The notes beneath the pieces were generated by a model. The model worked only from the letters and a program-made list of their open reading frames with translations, did not search any database and was not told the origin of the DNA. This document shows positions 1,596 to 23,486 of a DNA stretch of 25,976 bases, one piece after another. Source of the stretch: a virus. The stretch spans positions 1-25,976 of IMG/VR virus record IMGVR_UViG_3300025630_000049; one strand, 5' to 3'. The translations under genes were made by a program, and so were the position numbers. The stretch's first letter is position 1. Every line of letters starts with the position of its first letter.

Positions 1596-3008
1596 ATGAC
1601 GGCCTCTGAACCTGAGTTAAATATTGTATGGACTCCACAAAAGGGTCCACAACAGGCGTTAGTTGACTGTCCGTTGCCGCTAATTGGGTACGGTGGTGCT
1701 AGAGGTGGTGGTAAAACGGATGGTGTCTTGGGTAAGTTTGGTATCCTTGCTGAGATGCTTGGTGAGCGTTTTAACGCGATATTTTTTAGACGTGAGCTAC
1801 CACAAGCAGATGATTTAATTGAGCGTGCCAAACAGATATATTTGCCTTTAGAGGCACATTATAATGATCAGAAGAAGCAGTTTACGTTTGCTAGTGGAGG
1901 TAGGTTAAGGTTTAGACCATTGGGTAGCAATGCTGATGCGGAGAAGTATCAGGGTCAGAATTTGAGTCATGCTGCTATAGAGGAAGCTGGTAACTATCCT
2001 ACTCCAGAGCCTATATTTAAGTTGTTTGGTGCATTGCGTGGTACAGAAACGCAGATGATATTGACGTTTAATCCTGGTGGTCCTGGGCATAAGTGGTTGA
2101 AGGATTTGTTTATAAAACCGGCACCTAAAGGGTGGAAGGTGTTACAGTGGAAGATTACGGAGGATAAGTCGGTACCGTATATTTATATACCAAGCAGGGT
2201 ACAGGATAATCAGATATTGTTGCAAAAAGATCCTGGGTATATTGATCGGTTACACATGGTGGGTAGTCCTGAGTTGGTTAGGGCGTGGTTGGAGGGTGAC
2301 TTTGAGATACACGAAGGTAGTTATTTTCCTGAGTTTAGCACTAAACATATTATTCGGCCTTTCAATGTACCCAAGCATTGGCCTCGTTATCTTGGTTACG
2401 ATTGGGGTTATACTAGTAACTTTGCTGCCGTTTGGGGTGCTGTTTGTAGTGGCAAGACAGACGAAGGGGAGAACATTGAATTGCCGAAAGGGGCAATTGT
2501 CATATATCGGGAGCTGTACGGCAAACAGATTGAAAACAAAGACCAAGCAGAAAGGATAGCTAGTTTGAGTGTCGGGGAAGATCCTATCTCAGTGGCTGAC
2601 CCTAGTATTTTTAATAGTAATGGTGGTCCTACTATAAATGACCAATTTGCAGCCGTATTTAGCAAATATAATCATCCTATTTTTAGAAGGGCTGATAATG
2701 AAAGGGTCAGTGGATGGACTCAGATCAGACGACGATTACAGGCAGAAGCACCATTATTGTATATTTTTGACACGTGTACTTACTTAATTGAGACGCTACC
2801 TAGCTTACAGATGGATAAGAGGCAGATGGAGGATGTTGATAGTACAGGTGACGACCATGCGGCTGATGCGTTAAGATATCTATGTAAAGAACGATTAATG
2901 GATTCCACGTTTTCTTCTGCCGTGCCCAAGAGCGTTCATAGAGGCAAAGTACATCTACAATTGTATGTTAATGAAATACGTAAGAATCAGAAAAGGACTG
3001 TTATCTAA
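1596..3008 (+). CDS. terL: Terminase large subunit (packaging ATPase/nuclease)
   Basis: 470 residues, a normal length. This is the motor that drives DNA into the procapsid through the portal and cuts the concatemer. The Walker A-type loop GGARGGGKT is at residues 33-41. A Walker B-like AAIEEAG is at about 126-132, and the coupling motif TFNP at 157-160. The RNase H-like nuclease domain is marked by GYDWG (Asp269), VADPS (Asp335) and the C-terminal DDHAADALRY (about 419-428). All expected acidic residues are present, so it looks functional. The ATG lies six bases after the previous stop. The TAA overlaps the portal ATG by one base, indicating coupled translation of the two packaging partners. 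Confidence 0.96.
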   Translation: MTASEPELNIVWTPQKGPQQALVDCPLPLIGYGGARGGGKTDGVLGKFGILAEMLGERFNAIFFRRELPQADDLIERAKQIYLPLEAHYNDQKKQFTFASGGRLRFRPLGSNADAEKYQGQNLSHAAIEEAGNYPTPEPIFKLFGALRGTETQMILTFNPGGPGHKWLKDLFIKPAPKGWKVLQWKITEDKSVPYIYIPSRVQDNQILLQKDPGYIDRLHMVGSPELVRAWLEGDFEIHEGSYFPEFSTKHIIRPFNVPKHWPRYLGYDWGYTSNFAAVWGAVCSGKTDEGENIELPKGAIVIYRELYGKQIENKDQAERIASLSVGEDPISVADPSIFNSNGGPTINDQFAAVFSKYNHPIFRRADNERVSGWTQIRRRLQAEAPLLYIFDTCTYLIETLPSLQMDKRQMEDVDSTGDDHAADALRYLCKERLMDSTFSSAVPKSVHRGKVHLQLYVNEIRKNQKRTVI

Positions 3009-5488
3009 TGGCCAAGAATAGCAAGAATAAATACACAGGCAGTTGGTGGCATTCACAAATTAGCAATGCTGAGGATAGACATAAGAAGTTTTTTGAACAG
3101 TGCCAAGAGAGCATTAAGGTTTATAAGGCTGAAAAAGATTTATCTGATACACAGCGGAGATTGAACGTTTGGTGGTATATCGTTAATACCCTACTCCCTG
3201 CTTATTATTCCAGTACGCCGAAGGCAGAGGTTAATCTTAGAAAGAGGGTGGGTGGATTAAAATATGAACTGGGTGCGGTTATATTAGAGCGTAATACCCA
3301 GTTTTCCATGGATGAGCATTTTGATTTTGATACGGTTGGTTACAATGCGGCATTGCAATTTTTACTGACTGGTAGAAGCGTATTATGGGCTAGGTACGAA
3401 GCAGAGTTTGAAAAAGAATTGATGGATTTTGCGTTAATACGCAATGAAGCCGGTATACTTGTTAATGCACAGGGTATGCCGTTTGAAGGCGATGAAGCTA
3501 CGTTAGTTACTACTCCTGAAGGCATTATTATTGGTCAGATGGAGATTGAAGTAAAAGATGATGAAAGAGCTATTTTAGAGAATGTACATTATAATGATTT
3601 TCTCACTGCTGATGCTAGAAGCGAAAGTGAAATTGAATGGAAGGCGAAACGAGCATTTTTAACTAAGTACCAGGCGGAGGAAAAGTTTGGTTCTGATGTA
3701 GCTAAGAATATGAAGTTTGATAGCTACCCTGAAATATTGAAGAGCAACTACTGGAATGATTCCAGTAAGTACGAGGGTAAGGCAGAACTGTGGGAGATTT
3801 GGTGTAAAGAAAGCGATAAGGTGTATTGGTTGCAGAAAAACGGCGACCAAAGCATGCTTGAAGAAGGTGAGCCACCAGTTGAGTATGAAGGTTTTTGGCC
3901 GTGTTCTGTTATAAGCCAAAGCACTGATCCTAATTCAGTTATTCCTGTTTCAGATTACGTACATGCTAAAGACCAGATTTTAGAAGTAGAAAGAATTACA
4001 ACTAGATTAGCTGCAACTGTACAGGCTGTTAGAACTAATGCTTTGTATGATGCCACGATGGGCGTACAAGTAGAACAGTTATTACAAGGCGATTTAAAGT
4101 ATATTCCTGTTAATAACTGGCCTAGTTATAAGGGTAGAGGTGGTCAAGCTAACGGGATTGAGTATTTAGATATTAGACCATACGTAGAGGCTATTAGCGT
4201 ATTACAAGCTGCAAGAACTGAAGCACTAAATCAATTGTATGAGACATTAAAGGTTAGTGATCTACTACGTGGCACCTCTGCTGAGTATAAAACTGCAACT
4301 GCTAATAGGTTAGAAAATGCCTGGAGCAGTCTAGGGTTAATTGTAAGACAGAATCAGTTTGCTAAATTTATCAGCGACGGTGTGAATAAGTTAGGCACCA
4401 TTATTGCTGAGAATTTTAGCGCTGAGACATTATTTGCGGTATCTGATGCCGATAATTTAATTGGTCAATTGTTGCCTGAACAAGCTGATCCGATCATGCG
4501 GATGCAGCAATTAGACATGATTAAAGGTGATATCATCGACGTTCTACAAGATGATGAAGATCGTATTTATCGCATTGTTATTGCCACCGATAGCATGGTG
4601 GCTCTTGATCAAGCACAAGATAAACAAGATGGTTTGCAGCTGTTGGAAACCTGTGGACAATTTTTTGAGCAATTAAAATCAATGACCGAAGCATACCCAC
4701 CATTAGCTGGTTTTGGTATGGAACTCATGCAAAACATGATTAGGCGCTTTAAGGGTGGTAAAGAACTAGATGGTCTGTTTACCAAAGCATTAGGTGACGT
4801 TAGAGTGATTGCTGATCAAAAATCACAACAAGCTCAACAAGCACCTTCCGATCCTCTTGTACTACAAGTAGAGCAACAGCGAGAGGCTGCACAAATAAAA
4901 GCACAACTAGAAATGCAGCGTATGCAAATGGATGCTCAAGAGATGCAACAAAAGGCATATATGGCTCAGTTAGATGCACAAGCTAGGATGGCTCAATCAC
5001 AAGCTGAAGTAGAAGTTGCTTACAGAAAAGCTCAGTTAGATGAGTTTATCGCACAGCAGAACGCTATGGTTGATAGTCAGAAATTACAGCTTGAGCAACA
5101 ACGCTTGCAGCTAGAAATGATGAAGATTCAATCTGAAACCGCCGTAAAAGCTGATAGCACCGAAGCTAAGAGAGAGGCAGATAGAGTAGCTCAGATTATT
5201 GACCTTCAACGCCTAGAGCTAGAAAACATGGCGGTTAGAATGAAGGAATCTGAGAAGTTGTTAGAAGAGCGTAGACTCAATCAAGAACAAGAGCTGGAGA
5301 AACTTAGACTTGCTGCTCAAACACAAATGCAAATCATGCAGCCTCCTCCAGTAGCACAACAAGCTCCATCAGAACCAGTGGTTATCAACAACATTGTTCC
5401 ACAACAAAAATGGAATAAGCGAGTTGGTAAAATAGTAACTGACGCTGATGGCAATCCATCAATAGAAATATTTAACGTGGAAAGTTAA
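3008..5488 (+). CDS. Portal protein with long C-terminal coiled coil
   Basis: 826 residues, at the long end for portals. The ring of twelve forms the DNA gateway at one capsid vertex, docks the terminase and later the tail adaptor. The N-terminal region (LNVWWYIVNTLLPAYYSSTPK) and the central part have the style of P22-type podovirus portals. From about residue 614 to 770 the chain is almost entirely Gln, Glu, Ala, Met and Lys with heptad spacing. That is a very long helical barrel or coiled coil, followed by a proline-rich linker and a short C-terminal domain ending IEIFNVES. It directly follows the large terminase with a TAATG overlap. Assignment is from position, length and architecture. 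Confidence 0.88.
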   Translation: MAKNSKNKYTGSWWHSQISNAEDRHKKFFEQCQESIKVYKAEKDLSDTQRRLNVWWYIVNTLLPAYYSSTPKAEVNLRKRVGGLKYELGAVILERNTQFSMDEHFDFDTVGYNAALQFLLTGRSVLWARYEAEFEKELMDFALIRNEAGILVNAQGMPFEGDEATLVTTPEGIIIGQMEIEVKDDERAILENVHYNDFLTADARSESEIEWKAKRAFLTKYQAEEKFGSDVAKNMKFDSYPEILKSNYWNDSSKYEGKAELWEIWCKESDKVYWLQKNGDQSMLEEGEPPVEYEGFWPCSVISQSTDPNSVIPVSDYVHAKDQILEVERITTRLAATVQAVRTNALYDATMGVQVEQLLQGDLKYIPVNNWPSYKGRGGQANGIEYLDIRPYVEAISVLQAARTEALNQLYETLKVSDLLRGTSAEYKTATANRLENAWSSLGLIVRQNQFAKFISDGVNKLGTIIAENFSAETLFAVSDADNLIGQLLPEQADPIMRMQQLDMIKGDIIDVLQDDEDRIYRIVIATDSMVALDQAQDKQDGLQLLETCGQFFEQLKSMTEAYPPLAGFGMELMQNMIRRFKGGKELDGLFTKALGDVRVIADQKSQQAQQAPSDPLVLQVEQQREAAQIKAQLEMQRMQMDAQEMQQKAYMAQLDAQARMAQSQAEVEVAYRKAQLDEFIAQQNAMVDSQKLQLEQQRLQLEMMKIQSETAVKADSTEAKREADRVAQIIDLQRLELENMAVRMKESEKLLEERRLNQEQELEKLRLAAQTQMQIMQPPPVAQQAPSEPVVINNIVPQQKWNKRVGKIVTDADGNPSIEIFNVES

Positions 5489-5497
5489 GGAAAATTT

Positions 5498-5923
5498 ATG
5501 GCAAACGTATTATATCCAAAATTTAAAGAGAAGTTATTAAATCCTGGTACTGCAGGTATTAACTCAGGTGCTCAGGTTGATATGGATAGCGACAACATTA
5601 GGGTGGCACTTATTGACACTGGTGTATATACCTACAATGCTTCTCATGAGTTTTTAAGCAGCGCGTCAGGTGCAACAGTAGGTACAGCACAGCTTCTTGG
5701 CTCTAAAACAGTAACAAACGGCGTGTTTGATGCTGGTGACGTTACATTTACTGGATTAACCGGAAACTCAGTTGAGGCATATATTATCTACAAGGATACT
5801 GGTACAGCCTCCTCTAGCCCATTGATTGCTTATTTTGACAGCGCGACTTCTGGATTACCACTTACTCCTAACGGCGGTAACGTGACAATCCAATTCAACG
5901 CATCAGGCATCTTTGCATTGTAA
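5498..5923 (+). CDS. Phage virion protein, decoration-like
   Basis: 141 residues, preceded by an AAGGA-type site after the portal stop. It reads as a small all-beta structural protein. An N-terminal MANVLYPKFKEKLL helix is followed by DNIRVALIDTGVYTYNASHEFL, then threonine/glycine-rich strands and the PNGGNVTIQFN segment near the end. This layout matches a widespread family of phage proteins that includes the pattern (D)DIRVALVDTG...HEFL, generally annotated as hypothetical or head-associated. Inference: a capsid decoration or head-surface protein. It is the first gene of the block between portal and scaffold and is followed by a weak hairpin. Confidence 0.75.
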   Translation: MANVLYPKFKEKLLNPGTAGINSGAQVDMDSDNIRVALIDTGVYTYNASHEFLSSASGATVGTAQLLGSKTVTNGVFDAGDVTFTGLTGNSVEAYIIYKDTGTASSSPLIAYFDSATSGLPLTPNGGNVTIQFNASGIFAL

Positions 5924-5933
5924 TTATAAAGCT

Positions 5934-5955
5934 AGGGGCACTAATAGGTGCCCTT
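5934..5955 (+). terminator. Weak intergenic hairpin after decoration-like gene
   Basis: The arms AGGGGCAC and GTGCCCTT form an eight-pair stem (one G-U pair) around the loop TAATAG. It is followed by GCTACATTT rather than a true T-run, so it is either a weak terminator or an mRNA-stabilising hairpin at a processed 3' end. Confidence 0.45.
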
Positions 5956-5975
5956 GCTACATTTAGGTAGGTATC

Positions 5976-6836
5976 ATGGCTGCTATTGCGGATTTAAGCA
6001 CACTAATAAACAAAGTCTCTGGTGGCGGTGGAGGCACGAGAGAAACTATTTTCCTTTTTAAAACCAATAGAGTGGCTGGAGCAACTGCAAGCGTATTGGT
6101 TACTGGCAGATTAAATTCTCTTTGGCGTATGGATGGAACTCCGCAAGGTGGTGATGTTCCTACTTCAGCAGCTATTCCCGACAACACGACTAATGGATCA
6201 TTAAAGCAGACTAGCAATACTTCTGGATACGAAAAGTTTATTTACAGCTACTGTATGTCCAGCTTAAATGCTGCTTCGTTTATTTTATATGACCGATTGA
6301 TGCACTGTGGTGGTTTAAGTGGAACGGTAACAACTGCACAAACTGTCCAAGGTGATCCAGCGTCACCAGGATTAACTCGTTACAATACAAACTCAACTTG
6401 CGTCGGTAACATGATAATGGTTGAAATTTACACTGCACTGGGTACGACTCAAAGAACTATTACCGCTTCATATACTAACCAGGCTGGTACAGCTAATCAG
6501 ACTACTATAGCTACGCCGATTGGTTCTGCTAACTTTAATAACGCTTATCGTGCATTTTTCTTACCATTAGCTGATGGTGATACAGGCGTACAGGCAGTTA
6601 AAGACGTAACAATATCGGCATCTACAGGCGGACCGGGTAACTTCGGTGTTTCAATAGTGAGACCACTAGCGATGATAGGCACAATGGAAACTGGCGGTAC
6701 AGGATTCAGAGATTTTACAGTAGGTTTACCTGGTCTTCCTGAAGTGGAAAGCGGTGCTTGTCTAGCTATGTTAGTTATTCCTAGCAATAACGCTAACTAC
6801 GAGTGCTACGGCGGTTTATCTCTAGTGGAGAGTTAA
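5976..6836 (+). CDS. Virion protein, first of two tandem paralogues
   Basis: 286 residues. A GGTAGGT sequence precedes the ATG. The N-terminal 100 residues, with a G5 run at 16-20, differ from its neighbour. From residue 106 it shares an ordered motif set with the next gene: DRL (106-108), LSGT, LTRY, SYTNQAG (165-171), LADGDTGV (198-205), STGG (216-219), then GISI/GVSI-type strand and P(L/G)LPE. It is glycine/threonine-rich and predicted beta-rich, with no signal peptide or enzyme motif. I infer a head-surface or vertex structural protein, because it lies between portal and scaffold. The family name is not known to me. Confidence 0.72.
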   Translation: MAAIADLSTLINKVSGGGGGTRETIFLFKTNRVAGATASVLVTGRLNSLWRMDGTPQGGDVPTSAAIPDNTTNGSLKQTSNTSGYEKFIYSYCMSSLNAASFILYDRLMHCGGLSGTVTTAQTVQGDPASPGLTRYNTNSTCVGNMIMVEIYTALGTTQRTITASYTNQAGTANQTTIATPIGSANFNNAYRAFFLPLADGDTGVQAVKDVTISASTGGPGNFGVSIVRPLAMIGTMETGGTGFRDFTVGLPGLPEVESGACLAMLVIPSNNANYECYGGLSLVES

Positions 6837-7652
6837 ATGGCATACGCCGATTATAACGCCTATAAAAATTCAACGATTCAAAGCGCACAGAGAAGCGATA
6901 CAGGATTTAGAACCTTCAATGCGGCTGGTGGCAATCAAGCTGGACGATTACTTGATATGTTTACCTATGCCTATCCCGATGTTGATACACCTACCGTCCC
7001 AGAAGTGCCAACTCAAGCTTTAATAGGTGCTCTTCCCTTGGCAAATGCTGGTACTGGCCGATTAGTTGTTAATTCGATTAACGCATCAGGTTTTGTTCCA
7101 GGGATGCACATACTTTGCGATAGACTTTCGCACCAAGGCAATTTGAGCGGAACCTTAAACACCACGCAGACAACTAATCTGCCAACCGCAGCTCTTACAC
7201 GTTACACCGATGGGCAAGGTGTTATGGCTTTGGTCACAATTTGGTCACAAATTGGAACGACCGCTACGACCTACACAATCAATTACACTAATCAAGCAGG
7301 TATAGCGGGGCAAACTTCAGTGGCTCTAGATGTATCAGGCAGTTATGAAAAGAGATGGTTTGGCAGAGCTTTCGTTACACCTCTTGCTTCTGGTGATACT
7401 GGAGTAAGATCTGTTGAAAGTTTTAAATTGGCTGCTTCAACTGGTGGTGGTACCTTTGGCATTTCTTTAATAAAGCCGCTGCTATTTATGCAAGTAACGC
7501 AGCGTGGTAATACCAACCAAGCTGACTTTATGACAAACAATTTACATGGCGGACTACCAGAAATATTAGATGATGCTTTTCTATTCTGGCTAAGTATTCC
7601 AGGCCCAGGAACAACGGCAGCAACAGGTCAAGTTAACTTCTCAGAGGTTTAA
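6837..7652 (+). CDS. Virion protein, second of two tandem paralogues
   Basis: 271 residues, starting immediately after the stop of its paralogue with no intergenic base. The conserved C-terminal half carries DRLSHQGNLSGT (95-106), LTRY (120-123), NYTNQAG (149-155), LASGDTGV (183-190) and STGG (201-204), in the same order and nearly the same spacing as the upstream gene. The N-terminal part is unrelated, beginning MAYADYNAYKNSTIQSAQR with tyrosine-rich helix-like sequence. The pattern suggests duplication followed by exchange or fast divergence of the N-terminal anchor. Role inferred: virion surface component that may form mixed or alternating assemblies with its partner. Confidence 0.72.
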   Translation: MAYADYNAYKNSTIQSAQRSDTGFRTFNAAGGNQAGRLLDMFTYAYPDVDTPTVPEVPTQALIGALPLANAGTGRLVVNSINASGFVPGMHILCDRLSHQGNLSGTLNTTQTTNLPTAALTRYTDGQGVMALVTIWSQIGTTATTYTINYTNQAGIAGQTSVALDVSGSYEKRWFGRAFVTPLASGDTGVRSVESFKLAASTGGGTFGISLIKPLLFMQVTQRGNTNQADFMTNNLHGGLPEILDDAFLFWLSIPGPGTTAATGQVNFSEV

Positions 7653-7654
7653 AC

Positions 7655-8881
7655 ATGACCATAAAGCGATTTTTTGACGGAGCAGCAGTTGAGCTAGGGC
7701 TACTTCCAGCAGAATCGCTTGATCAAGAAATGGTCGCTTCGTTCCTATCATCGGGCGAAACACTTTATCTTGCTACTATTGAATCTGAATACATAATTGT
7801 ATCGGATACGATTGCTACTACTGAGATACTTTACGACGCTGACATAACTAGCGAATATACAGTAGAAGCTGATTATTTGGCATCAGGCGAGCAGCTTTTT
7901 AATGCTACGGTAGAAGCCACGAATGACATTGTAGCAGATTATCTACCCTCTGGTGAGACACTCTACGATGCTGTTTTAGATTTTACCGACATCATAGATG
8001 CAGAGTTTTTAGCAAGCACAGAAATAGCCTATGACACTACACTTACCGCTACTAATCAAATTGATGCAAATTACTTAGATAGCCAAGCGGTACTTTACAA
8101 TGCAACAATTAATACAGGTCAGCAGATAGATGCTCAGTATTTAGACTCTACAGCCGTACTTTACGAAGCGGTAGTTTACCTACCTCCTACTCAAGATATT
8201 TTATCCGAAACAATATCTGGTACACAGCTATTTGAAGCAGTGGTCTATCTGCCACCTACCCAAACAATAGAATCTAACACGATTTCTGAGACACAATACT
8301 TCTTAGCTACAATTGGTGAAGTAGTCTATTTTATTAATTCTGAAACTATTACTGGCACTGTACTTTACGAAGCTGCAATAAACCAAGCACCGACGCAGAC
8401 AATTCAATCCCAATTTATAAGCGATACCCAGTTGTTTGACGCAGTAGTTTACCTGCCGCCAACACAAACAATCCCAAGCGAGATTATAAGTGAAACTGTT
8501 TTATATCCAGCATTGGTTTCATACCCACAAACTTTAGCAGCTGCTTTTTTACCATCTGGTGCAATTTTATACCCTGCTGTAATTGAAAACATACTGATAA
8601 ATGACGACGCTGAACCGCATGGCGTAAAGAAGCGTAAAAAGCGTAAGAGCGAAGAAGAACTATACGAAGAGCAGTTAGCAGCAAAAATCCTTGAAGAAAG
8701 GATGAAAGGTCGTAATCCTTTACAACAAGAAAAATCTATAAATCGTATTAGTTTTACTGACGTTTTAAATGCAAATTATGCAGCCACACAAAATCCAATA
8801 GAAGCAATTATAGCGCCTATAGCAAAAAAAGAAGTTGATAAAGTAAAACTTCTAATGTTAATGGCTGCCATGGAGGATTAA
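7655..8881 (+). CDS. Repeat-rich virion protein (about 13 beta repeats)
   Basis: 408 residues. After a short N-terminal segment, residues 27-312 consist of about thirteen degenerate repeats of 21-24 residues. The core is roughly (A/S)x(Y/F)(L/I)xSxxxLY(D/E)Axxxxxxxxx(I/V). Several repeats carry the insert VYLPPTQ (residues 174-180, 197-203 and 264-270). Such repeats should stack into an elongated beta structure and occur in other phage or prophage structural proteins. A basic cluster KKRKKRK (325-331) separates the repeats from a charged helical C-terminus. Inference: a fibrous or decoration virion protein. The function is not established, and its place before the scaffold is unlike that of a classic tail fibre. 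Confidence 0.75.
   Translation: MTIKRFFDGAAVELGLLPAESLDQEMVASFLSSGETLYLATIESEYIIVSDTIATTEILYDADITSEYTVEADYLASGEQLFNATVEATNDIVADYLPSGETLYDAVLDFTDIIDAEFLASTEIAYDTTLTATNQIDANYLDSQAVLYNATINTGQQIDAQYLDSTAVLYEAVVYLPPTQDILSETISGTQLFEAVVYLPPTQTIESNTISETQYFLATIGEVVYFINSETITGTVLYEAAINQAPTQTIQSQFISDTQLFDAVVYLPPTQTIPSEIISETVLYPALVSYPQTLAAAFLPSGAILYPAVIENILINDDAEPHGVKKRKKRKSEEELYEEQLAAKILEERMKGRNPLQQEKSINRISFTDVLNANYAATQNPIEAIIAPIAKKEVDKVKLLMLMAAMED
7733..8590 (+). repeat. Degenerate coding repeats, 63-72 bases each
   Basis: About thirteen in-frame units encode the repeated strand-turn-strand pattern of the 408-residue protein. DNA identity is low between most units, so this is an old expansion. Three units share a more similar stretch encoding VYLPPTQ near 8174, 8243 and 8444, pointing to later local duplication. 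Confidence 0.7.
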
Positions 8882-10461: not shown

Positions 10462-11418
10462 ATGGCAAATTTAGAAGAAGCCGTCGTCACTACTCTCTTT
10501 GATCAAAGCGAAGAGATTGCGGATGCGGTGATGCATCACAACCCTGTTTTGGCAGCATTGCAAGAACAAGGATTAGTAAGAAGAATCAGTGGTGGCTACG
10601 AGCTACGTAAACCAATTATGTATAATGACACCCAAGTTGGTGGATTCTACAGTGGTTACAGCTCATTTAATTTGGATGCAATTGATGACATCACAGCATT
10701 CAGATTCGCTATCAAGCAAGTTTACGAACCAATGAGCATTTCCGGTCGTGAGCGCAGAGCCAACAGAGATGAAGCTCAATTGCTTGATCTTGTACAAAGC
10801 AAGATGGAAGCTACAATTGCTAGGTTGAAGAATACTGTTTCTACTTCCCTTCGTGGAGATGGAACAGGTTCTAGCGGTTTGGAGTTTGATGGTTTGAAGA
10901 AAGCTATCTCTACTTCTCCAACATCCGGAACCTACGGTTCTATCGACCGTACATCTAACACCTTTGCTCAAAACGTAGCTGTCAACGTGACTCTCTCTGC
11001 ATCTAACGTGCAAGAGCAAATCACTGACGCTATCTCTAGAGTAACTCGTGGTGACGAGATGCCTGACCTTGGCATCATGGATAGAACAGCATGGAAATAT
11101 CTCCACAGCTCTCTAACCGCGATCCAAAGAATACAGCTTCCTACCAAGAAAGCAGTAGCTGGTTTCCGCGCTCTTGAGTATGATGGTTGTTCATTTGTCT
11201 TCGACGGTGGTTATGATTCCGCTGTTCTTGAGACAAACAGCTGCCGCTTACTCAACACCAAGTATTTCACATTTGACATGGTACGTGGTGCTGACTTCAA
11301 ACCACTACAAGATCAGATGGCAAGGCCGGTTGATCAAGATGCTTTCTTCACTGTGGTTATTTGTGAAGGAAACCTCTGTTGTTCAGCTCCAGCTCTGCAA
11401 GCTGTTATTTATCAATAG
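10462..11418 (+). CDS. Major capsid protein
   Basis: 318 residues, consistent with a HK97-fold coat protein without a long N-terminal delta region. It follows the scaffold and a GAGG ribosome binding site. The sequence has the style of podovirus or siphovirus coats: an N-terminal helix (EEAVVTTLFDQSEEIADAV), the stretch DDITAFRFAIKQVYEPMSISGRE, and the domain around DLGIMDRTAWKYLHSSL. Codon choice shifts here towards C-ending codons (by my count 9 of 12 Asn codons are AAC, while AAT dominates in the ejection genes), as expected for the most abundant virion protein. Assignment from position, length and neighbours. Confidence 0.88.
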   Translation: MANLEEAVVTTLFDQSEEIADAVMHHNPVLAALQEQGLVRRISGGYELRKPIMYNDTQVGGFYSGYSSFNLDAIDDITAFRFAIKQVYEPMSISGRERRANRDEAQLLDLVQSKMEATIARLKNTVSTSLRGDGTGSSGLEFDGLKKAISTSPTSGTYGSIDRTSNTFAQNVAVNVTLSASNVQEQITDAISRVTRGDEMPDLGIMDRTAWKYLHSSLTAIQRIQLPTKKAVAGFRALEYDGCSFVFDGGYDSAVLETNSCRLLNTKYFTFDMVRGADFKPLQDQMARPVDQDAFFTVVICEGNLCCSAPALQAVIYQ

Positions 11419-16256: not shown

Positions 16257-17783
16257 ATGCAATATGAGGGATTTACAATACCACCTCCCTATAAAGGGCT
16301 GGATCTAGTTAGTCCAATAGATGGCATGGATCCAGCTACTGCGCTGGAGTTGGTAAACGTTTTCCCTGGAGCTACGGCTCCTATTACTCGTCTTGGTTAT
16401 ACTGAACTAGTAAACCTATCGGCATCTAATACAGGCGTAAAGACTCTCACTGCATATAATAAAACTGACGGCACTAGCGAAATTATTGCTGTTTCTGATG
16501 GTGGTACAAAAAAGATATTTAAGGTGGTGGCTGGTGTTGGCACCGATATTACAGGCACGACAGCTATTACCGAACCGAACATGCAAACGGAGCAGTTTGG
16601 GAGTAGGCTATATTTCTGTAATGGTACTGAAGCTGTTCAGGTGTACGACGGTAGTACAGTTGCAGATTCTACATTCACCTTTCCTGGTGGCAGCGGAGTA
16701 ACCTTAGCTAATCTTATAAACGTTAGCAGCTACAAAGAACGGCTATACTTTGTTCAACAAAACAGCCTTAAATTCTGGTACGGAAACACTCAAGCAGTAG
16801 GCGCATCTCAACTAACCGCTTTTGACTTGCAGTATGTAATGAAGGGTGGTGGTCGATTGCTTTTTGCTGGCAGCTATACCAATGCTACAGCTCAAACAGC
16901 TACAGATTTATTCTGGGCTATCAGTAGCGAAGGGGAGATTGTATTTTACGCTGGTAGCTCTCCTTCAGACACAAACTGGGCATTAGTAGCTCGTTATGTA
17001 ATTGGCAAACCTCTTGGTTATCGTGCTTTTTTAAGGGTGAATAATGATGTTTGGATACTCACGCAACAGGGTGTGTTACCGCTTTCTGCTTTATTTCAAG
17101 CTGATCCTGAGAAAGCTATTACGTTAATTAGTGGCTCCGTAAATCCTTATATTTCCACCTATAGCAGTGTAATTGATTTTAGCGCAAGGTGGCATGGAAT
17201 GTTTTGGCCACAAGGTAGACGAGTATTTATTAATGTTCCCAAAAGCGAATCTCAAAGCACTATGCTGGTATTTAGCATAGATACTAATGGCTGGTGCGTG
17301 TACGAATTATTTGATCAAGAAGACAGCAACACTATCTCTGTGGTGGACGGCGTACCTTACTATGGCAGCAATCACGGATATATTTACACAGCTGAAAATG
17401 GCTACACCGATAAGGGCAATGCAATAAGTTTCAGCGCAAGAACGGCATTTTCATTTTACGGTAGCAGAGGCAATTATAAAGCCTTTAAAGACATAAGACC
17501 ATTACTACTAACTAAAAAAGGTCTAACTATGTCATTAGGTATAGATACGGACTTCCAGCGAAAGCTAACTGTTGATACAGTAACTACAGGTACCTCTGTA
17601 AACACGCCGTGGGGGTCTCCCTGGGGGTCTCCCTGGGCATCGCCTACTGAATATTTATTTAATCGTTACGCAGTGAGAGGCCAAGGACACAGCGCCGCCG
17701 TGCGATTTGGCGGTAGCGTAAATTCGGCACAATGTCAGATATTTGGGTTTGAAATTAGATTTGATTTAGGTGGACAGGTTTAA
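16257..17783 (+). CDS. Tail nozzle/stabilisation protein (P22 gp10-like)
   Basis: 508 residues. It begins MQYEGFTIPPPYKGLDLVSP, then DGMDPATALELVNVFPGA and ITRLGYTEL, the opening typical of gp10-type packaged-DNA stabilisation proteins that plug the short tail. The body is all-beta with repeated Tyr/Phe strands, consistent with a propeller-like nozzle. Near the C-terminus there is a PWGSPWGSPWASP loop (about residues 451-463) coded by a 12-base repeat. No membrane segment. It lies three genes after the adaptor. Assignment is from sequence style and order. Confidence 0.78.
   Translation: MQYEGFTIPPPYKGLDLVSPIDGMDPATALELVNVFPGATAPITRLGYTELVNLSASNTGVKTLTAYNKTDGTSEIIAVSDGGTKKIFKVVAGVGTDITGTTAITEPNMQTEQFGSRLYFCNGTEAVQVYDGSTVADSTFTFPGGSGVTLANLINVSSYKERLYFVQQNSLKFWYGNTQAVGASQLTAFDLQYVMKGGGRLLFAGSYTNATAQTATDLFWAISSEGEIVFYAGSSPSDTNWALVARYVIGKPLGYRAFLRVNNDVWILTQQGVLPLSALFQADPEKAITLISGSVNPYISTYSSVIDFSARWHGMFWPQGRRVFINVPKSESQSTMLVFSIDTNGWCVYELFDQEDSNTISVVDGVPYYGSNHGYIYTAENGYTDKGNAISFSARTAFSFYGSRGNYKAFKDIRPLLLTKKGLTMSLGIDTDFQRKLTVDTVTTGTSVNTPWGSPWGSPWASPTEYLFNRYAVRGQGHSAAVRFGGSVNSAQCQIFGFEIRFDLGGQV
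17607..17642 (+). repeat. 12-base tandem repeat coding PWGS units
   Basis: Three units start at 17607, 17619 and 17631. The first two differ by one base (CCGTGGGGGTCT and CCCTGGGGGTCT); the third diverges after CCCTGGG. They lie inside the nozzle gene and encode Pro-Trp-Gly-Ser repeats. In-frame slippage would change loop length without breaking the gene. Confidence 0.75.
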
Positions 17784-22361: not shown

Positions 22362-23486
22362 ATGGCCTGGTCAGGTGGAACATTTACAAGAGCTAATGGT
22401 AGCACAGAGTGGCAAGACGATGCGGCATTAGGTATCGGCATTGAAGCTGCGATTCATGATGCTCAGGATAATGACTTGGCTACAGGTATCAATAACTGCT
22501 TAACTAAGGATGGTCAGAACACTCCTACCGCTAATTTGCCGATGGGTGGCTACAAGCATACAGGCGTGGCAAATGCTACGGGTTCGGGACAGTACACTAC
22601 TTATAATCAGTTACAGGACAATACATTCCAGGCATTTTTAAAACAGGCGAGTGTTAATGAGACAGGAGGAGCTAGACCAGTTTTGCAGGCTACGAGTTGG
22701 TCGAATGATACTCAGCGAGCTACTATATATCTAAATAAATCTAGAGGCACTACAGTTGGTGATTATACCATTGTAAATAATGGTGACACTTATGGCGATA
22801 TTATTTGGCGTGGTTGTAACGGCACAGATTTTGATATTGCTGGACGTATAAGAGTAGTTTGCACCAATACTCCAGGTGCTACCAATGATATGCCTGGTAC
22901 TATGCTATTTGACACAACTGCTAACGGTAGTAGTACGGTTACCGAAAGAATGAGAATAGATTCAGAAGGAAAGGTTGGCATAGCGATGACTCCTGTTTCT
23001 GCTCAACTAGCAATTACAGCCGAATTAAACACCAGTGCGGCGGTTCAAACCTGGAGCGTGACAGGTGATGTCGCTCAGGCCGCGATTGAAATATTAAAAT
23101 TTGATAATAACAGCACAACAACCCAAAATTTTATTCATTTCTGGATAAACAACGGCGTAGCGCAAAGTGGCAAAATAACCGCCAACGGCGCAAACCAGGC
23201 AACTTTTACAAGCACTTCTGATGAGCGACTAAAAGAAAATATCGTTGATTTACCGCCTCAGTTGAACAACATCCTAAATCTAAGACCAGTTGAATTTGAT
23301 TATAAGGATGGCTCAGGGCATCAAACTGGATTCATTGCACAGGAGGTGCAGCAAGTTTATCCCGACTTAGTATCTCAAAACGATAATGGATTTTTGGATT
23401 TGGCAGGTTTAGGCAAATTTGAAGCACGTTTGATAAAAGCAATTCAAGAGTTAGAAGCAAGAGTAGCAGCACTTGAGGCTCCATAA
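22362..23486 (+). CDS. Tail fibre with C-terminal S74 self-cleaving chaperone
   Basis: 374 residues. The N-terminal 90 residues (MAWSGGTFTRANGSTEWQDD) look like a tail-attachment domain, including MGGYKHTGVANATGSGQYTTYNQL. The middle is beta-rich. From about 283 there is an intramolecular chaperone of the peptidase S74 type: TSDERLKENI gives the Ser286-Lys291 dyad, followed by LRPVEFDYKDGSGHQTGFIAQEVQQVYP and a closing heptad coil (LIKAIQELEARVAALE). In this family the chaperone drives trimer folding and is then cut off just before the serine, leaving a mature fibre of about 285 residues. It is short for a receptor fibre. Confidence 0.88.
   Translation: MAWSGGTFTRANGSTEWQDDAALGIGIEAAIHDAQDNDLATGINNCLTKDGQNTPTANLPMGGYKHTGVANATGSGQYTTYNQLQDNTFQAFLKQASVNETGGARPVLQATSWSNDTQRATIYLNKSRGTTVGDYTIVNNGDTYGDIIWRGCNGTDFDIAGRIRVVCTNTPGATNDMPGTMLFDTTANGSSTVTERMRIDSEGKVGIAMTPVSAQLAITAELNTSAAVQTWSVTGDVAQAAIEILKFDNNSTTTQNFIHFWINNGVAQSGKITANGANQATFTSTSDERLKENIVDLPPQLNNILNLRPVEFDYKDGSGHQTGFIAQEVQQVYPDLVSQNDNGFLDLAGLGKFEARLIKAIQELEARVAALEAP

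Follow-up and report, generated by a model that had tools for sequence, protein, structure and literature searches.

A paralogous beta-sandwich gene pair and a tagged repeat protein as a probable mobile adhesion-appendage cassette of tailed phages

The window analyzed here is a stretch of viral DNA of 25,976 nucleotides (IMG/VR record IMGVR_UViG_3300025630_000049, positions 1 to 25,976), in which we located the genes for TerL (1596-3008), the portal (3008-5488), and the major capsid protein (10462-11418). The genes considered in this work are all on the plus strand. They encode a putative appendage arm or adaptor protein of 141 amino acids (5498..5923), paralog A of 286 amino acids (5976..6836), paralog B of 271 amino acids (6837..7652), and a protein of 408 amino acids (7655-8881). 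The open reading frames of A and B abut directly. The 408-residue protein begins with a putative docking tag (7655..7714; MTIKRFFDGAAVELGLLPAE), and its remainder, a proposed swappable shaft and tip (7715..8881), consists of 22-residue repeats and a charged C-terminal tail.

An earlier note, made from the DNA letters of the window, had described A and B as tandem paralogs sharing six motifs in a common order. Indeed, all six are found in the same order in both proteins, at positions 106/95 (DRL, in A/B), 114/103 (LSGT), 133/120 (LTRY), 166/150 (YTNQAG), 201/186 (GDTGV), and 216/201 (STGG), and the two proteins align by BLASTP with 39% identity over 219 amino acids at an E-value of 6e-33, far beyond chance. 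The same note regarded the first ~95 residues of the two proteins as unrelated, a view that has to be abandoned. The pairwise BLASTP alignment already begins at A60/B50, and profiles made from only the residues that precede DRL, separately realigned for each of the two clades described below, detect the opposite clade with best E-values of 3.6e-14 and 3.7e-15. Matches below 1e-3 were obtained for 28/80 and 84/87 sequences of the opposite clade, and the lowest E-value of the reversed-sequence controls was 0.024, which rules out unrelated N-termini. When compared with hhalign, the two N-terminal profiles match at 98.6% (E-value of 1.3e-15), while the full-length profiles match at 100% (E-value of 9.5e-73), with residues 1-280 of A aligned to residues 1-272 of B. 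These comparisons indicate that the N-termini of A and B are homologous. The earlier impression arose because the N-terminus of B is fast-evolving and that of A is not: the mean top-residue frequency of B is 0.41 in the N-terminus versus 0.60 in the C-terminal part, whereas A is equally conserved in both parts (0.64 and 0.66, respectively).

Relatives of A and B are encoded on >500 viral-contig stretches. The loci analyzed (prefixed L) represent the closest relatives, sampled by rank, and the frequencies given here describe that sample. In a single FastTree phylogeny of 209 distinct family members from these loci, on which the A and B labels depend, 87 sequences form an A clade (support of 0.95) and 80 form a B clade (support of 1.0), with low support (0.42) for the node joining the two. 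The separate clades point to an ancient duplication at the origin of A and B. The order of the two genes is fixed, as none of the distinct arrays of classified members has B preceding A; 69 of these arrays are plain A-B, and the others are AAB, AABB, A..B with a gap, lone A or B, and arrays of other clades. The divergence of A is correlated with that of its partner B (Mantel r of 0.88; maximum of 0.20 in 999 permutations), although co-inheritance in one operon may alone produce such a high value. The mean identity is 53% for A and 41% for B, across very different phages. Some relatives, found in Rhodobacter, Microcystis, and Pseudanabaena phages, are single-copy and are not accompanied by the tag. 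One locus carries a second family pair belonging to neither the A nor the B clade (L007:10589-12600), ~3 kb past its first A-B pair, and the last copy of this second pair has an insertion of ~90-100 residues.

Both A and B are missing from the family libraries searched. Neither protein has a match at E<1 in Pfam or PHROGs, and searches with 62 A members against PHROGs and 62 B members against Pfam returned only scattered matches of one or two members with E-values above 0.01. Neither A as a single query nor the profiles of A and B yielded anything useful in sequence searches of the PDB, the one hit being a designed protein with an E-value of 0.09.

When predicted separately with AF2, A (mean pLDDT of 95.6, pTM of 0.93; from an alignment of rows taken from the loci, two phage-record rows being left out) and B (mean pLDDT of 89.9, pTM of 0.90) both adopt a beta-sandwich, each model being one compact beta-rich fold that has a short helix at its N-terminus. 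The N-terminal residues are thus predicted to lie within the common fold and not to form a separate anchor. Of the earlier proposal of one beta-rich head on two different anchors, the common beta-rich fold therefore survives, but the two anchors do not, as the N-termini are homologous and belong to the same domain. No confident solved structure was found for either model when the PDB was searched with Foldseek. Only jelly-roll-like matches were returned, the best of them to birnavirus VP2 (TM-score of 0.1-0.2, probability up to 0.57), and these matches of low TM-score were not taken as evidence of kinship. In BFVD, the confident matches of the B model were exclusively uncharacterized phage proteins, seven of them with E-values of ~1e-12 or below.

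The tag of the protein encoded after B is ~20 residues long and fits the near-invariant consensus MASRRLFDGAQIEIGxLPIVG (position 12 is also given as x). A distinct B is present in 75 loci; the protein encoded directly after it starts with the tag in 59 of them and lacks a recognized tag in 16. Recognition of the tag relied on a brief motif (F, optional F/Y, D/N, G, A) at roughly the right position, and a few of the 59 may therefore be due to chance. The strongest sign that the tag and A/B belong together comes from the reverse search, in which a 24-residue tag was used alone as the query. Of the distinct loci found in this way, 43 extend far enough upstream to be informative; in 41 of them, a family member ends 0-34 bases upstream of the tagged gene, and a 42nd case (L231) was found on inspection, leaving L206 as the only tagged locus without an upstream family member. 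Based on this co-occurrence, we infer that the tag may dock into a base formed by A and B.

Beyond the tag, these proteins are hypervariable. The first 19 residues have a median identity of 53% (ungapped count), and the next 100 residues have a median identity of 22.5%, versus 22.0% for shuffled sequences. This near-shuffled identity is observed even in several pairs of loci whose A proteins are 95-97% identical (L075 and L025, among others). No relative of the 7715-8881 part was found among phage records. Some tagged proteins have 61-73 residues and end in three WIKVSGVWK-like units, and nothing convincing was found for these short forms in the PDB; others have hundreds of residues in tandem repeats. 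In most of the long forms, the repeats are best described by a period of 20-24 residues or a multiple thereof, and the protein of the window (listed as L004, the same phage) has an autocorrelation period of 22 with a z-score of 10.4, composition shuffles being the only null for these periods. Exceptions are L062 (period of 14), L052 (26), and L054 (58), and several proteins have no clear period. In two cases, a recognizable domain follows the tag: the protein of phage ctCJ8213 has the tag, repeats, and then a C-terminal Pfam Alginate_lyase domain (E-value of 1.3e-18), and that of L048 has the tag followed by a DUF1349 domain (E-value of 4.3e-8).

The ends of some of these proteins also resemble each other. 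The 408-residue protein of the window ends in a charged, Leu/Met-rich segment (...KVKLLMLMAAMED), and similar acidic plus Leu-rich tails close the tagged proteins of L016, L042, L050, and L036. Two proteins without the tag, RcZahn gp41 (L173:8728-8973) and RcPescado gp14 (L003:9722-9970), are encoded directly after the single-copy family members gp40 and gp13, respectively, RcPescado being a Rhodobacter RcD phage. Both end in KVWxGSAWVxKP-like repeats that resemble the WIKVSGVWK units.

Upstream of A, the 5498-5923 protein matches phrog_644 (E-value of 3.2e-31), and its best phage match is an annotated minor tail subunit of Pseudanabaena phage Pam2 (57%). A profile of four of its relatives matches PDB 9d93, 'Tail wing arm, gp31' (E-value of 1.2e-5). 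We take this protein to be gp31 of mycobacteriophage Bxb1, since the same profile matches the gp31 open reading frame of the Bxb1 record; the Bxb1 wing arm would thus be a sequence relative of the arm protein of the window. A phrog_644 relative lies at most three genes upstream of A in 20/75 loci, and a phrog_644, phrog_3758, or Gp80-like gene does so in 27/75. In the other 48, the upstream genes are small or unrecognized, and no recognized arm or head family is present. The upstream slot of several loci is filled by homologs of fiber I (Gp80) of the Ralstonia phage GP4 (PF23140, E-value of 3.7e-20; PDB 8jou, E-value of 1.6e-5), which mostly adjoin family members that belong to neither the A nor the B clade. 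The 5498-5923 protein itself has no match in Pfam, PF23140 included; that family was matched by a neighboring gene in L167.

The earlier note had placed A and B between the portal and scaffold genes and found this unusual. The position is correct, the scaffold gene being putative, but it is less odd than it seemed, as terminase and portal genes are found upstream elsewhere too. Within the fetched flanks of the 83 A-containing loci, a terminase gene lies upstream in 19 and a portal gene in 16, and tape-measure or baseplate genes lie downstream in 6, counts that are bounded by the flank length and by the gene clusters of our own analysis. In both RcZahn and L010, family members have tail-tip genes as neighbors; the RcZahn member, the single-copy relative gp40, comes after genes for distal-tail and GTA TIM-barrel proteins. 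The RcZahn gp37-41 block recurs in the same order as genes 10-14 of the RcD phages, where it is listed with no known function (PMC8601537). A direct relation to the RcGTA head spikes was considered and rejected, as RcGTA spike matches are reported for other phages only (PMC8601537). The cassette of ctCJ8213 is located past recT and a KilA gene. Given these varied surroundings (portal region, tail-tip block, past recT and KilA), the cassette is not tied to one place.

Other genes of the window are also of note. A separate tail-fiber-like protein, which ends in a Peptidase_S74 chaperone domain, is encoded at 22362-23486, so the cassette would specify a second appendage. The gene beside the terminase gene (1035-1589) matches phrog_3704 (E-value of 6e-21), whose ferredoxin label seems odd. 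The 508-residue product of 16257-17783 has a full-length match to phrog_5107 (E-value of 1.2e-65), labeled as an amidase; this label is worth checking given the late structural genes in its neighborhood.

Taken together, the genes at 5498-8881 probably constitute a mobile adhesion-appendage cassette composed of an arm, a paralogous A/B base, and a tagged, swappable fiber. In many tailed phages that are unrelated to one another, such a self-contained cassette would sit among the late genes. Its arm protein would connect the appendage with the neck or tail. A and B, which share one predicted beta-sandwich fold, would assemble with each other to give a conserved base or collar, into which the near-invariant 20-residue tag would dock. 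The rest of the tagged protein would be a swappable shaft built of ~22-residue repeats and would carry a tip, for which the alginate lyase domain of ctCJ8213 is an example. We infer the physical contacts between A and B and between tag and base, for which co-occurrence is the basis, as well as the place of the appendage in the virion, its symmetry, and its role in adhesion. The mixed structure of A and B suggested in the earlier note fits their beta-sandwich folds, their fixed-order co-inheritance, and their correlated divergence; the head role suggested for them is unlikely, as the variable, tip-like element is the 7655-8881 protein. We put forward more tentatively, as a reading with somewhat less than an even chance, that the A/B base is a universal appendage socket that recognizes one 20-residue tag, with which many lineages would swap unrelated fibers, most of the long forms keeping a period of ~22 residues.

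It could be argued instead that A and B are the receptor-binding heads, arranged in a mixed lattice or in mixed trimers, and that the tagged repeat protein is a mere spacer or cap. Beta-sandwich folds are common among phage receptor-binding proteins, and B weakly resembles the carbohydrate-binding module 1v0a (Foldseek probability of 0.51, rank 29). We nevertheless consider this unlikely, as A and B are conserved (53% and 41%) where a receptor-binding tip should vary, and the tagged protein, which is swapped even next to A proteins that are 95-97% identical, varies where a base should not. In addition, the one clear enzyme domain is the C-terminus of a tagged protein. A and B would thus form a base and not a receptor-binding head, because the next gene couples a conserved tag to unrelated repeats.

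The cassette might also specify a capsid decoration or head fibers and not a neck or tail appendage, which would suit its position in the window, between the portal and major capsid genes. Moreover, phrog_3758 and phrog_240, both labeled as head proteins, occupy some of the upstream slots, and the C-terminal domain of RcZahn gp38, whose gene precedes that of a family member by two positions, matches PDB 9nx3, 'Capsid decoration protein'. However, where solved structures are available for the upstream relatives, these are of tail parts (the Bxb1 wing arm and GP4 tail fiber I), and the family is found in the tail-tip block of RcZahn and L010, making a location on the head rather improbable. About as unlikely is that A and B are assembly chaperones of the tagged fiber and stay outside the virion: obligate linkage to a hypervariable fiber-like gene, as seen for A and B, is typical of tail-fiber chaperones, and one tag bound by one conserved pair would suit a client signal, but two co-retained paralogs with an all-beta single-domain fold would, to our knowledge, be unusual for a chaperone, and the relatives lie among virion genes and adjoin tail-tip genes.

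The proposed appendage cassette has partial parallels in known systems. In the mycobacteriophage Mysterious, a gp35/gp36/gp37 heterotrimer accompanies a gp40 trimer; gp35-37 are encoded by adjacent genes of similar length and are similar beta-sandwich subunits of a hetero-oligomeric baseplate accessory that sits beside a small fiber-like protein (PMC13252515). A and B resemble this type as adjacent paralogs with one predicted beta-sandwich fold. Compared by description, Mysterious differs in having three subunits of ~205 amino acids, and the relevant passages mention no tagged repeat protein (PMC13252515). The tail protein regions of the mycobacteriophages Bxb1 and Catdawg gave no A/B match, so that Bxb1, despite its related wing arm, has no detectable A/B homolog in the region examined. 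Likewise, the GP4 structure has no sequence match to A/B or the tag, and the arm of the window belongs to phrog_644 and not to PF23140.

Other parallels concern the fiber. The gp82-gp81-gp80 neck fiber of Anabaena phage A-1(L) is encoded by a stand-alone trio of genes away from the other structural genes, and the trio self-assembles into a long appendage of anchor, beads, and tip (PMC10966104). The likeness lies in the stand-alone fiber module; in A-1(L), the beads are many copies of one protein, whereas here the repeats are within one chain. No Anabaena phage was found among the A or B matches. The 'extra structural module' of LSH1 (gp34-gp36) comprises three virion genes, which only half of the related genomes have; its payload is a lyase-like beta-helix, and its fibril is GP4-like (PMC13243795). 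Likened here by description, it differs from A/B in that no paralogous pair is described. The tagged proteins also resemble fibers with a conserved N-terminal anchor and a variable tip, as they share a short conserved N-terminus and have an unrelated remainder. By these analogies, the heteromeric beta-sandwich accessory and the stand-alone fiber module appear as kinds that are already known.

If the cassette functions as proposed, A/B together with the tag would provide a sequence handle for the host-contact fiber and its tip domain, and this handle would reach phages whose fibers cannot be recognized by homology. The tagged proteins would also be a clear case in which the sequence is free and the repeat length is constrained.
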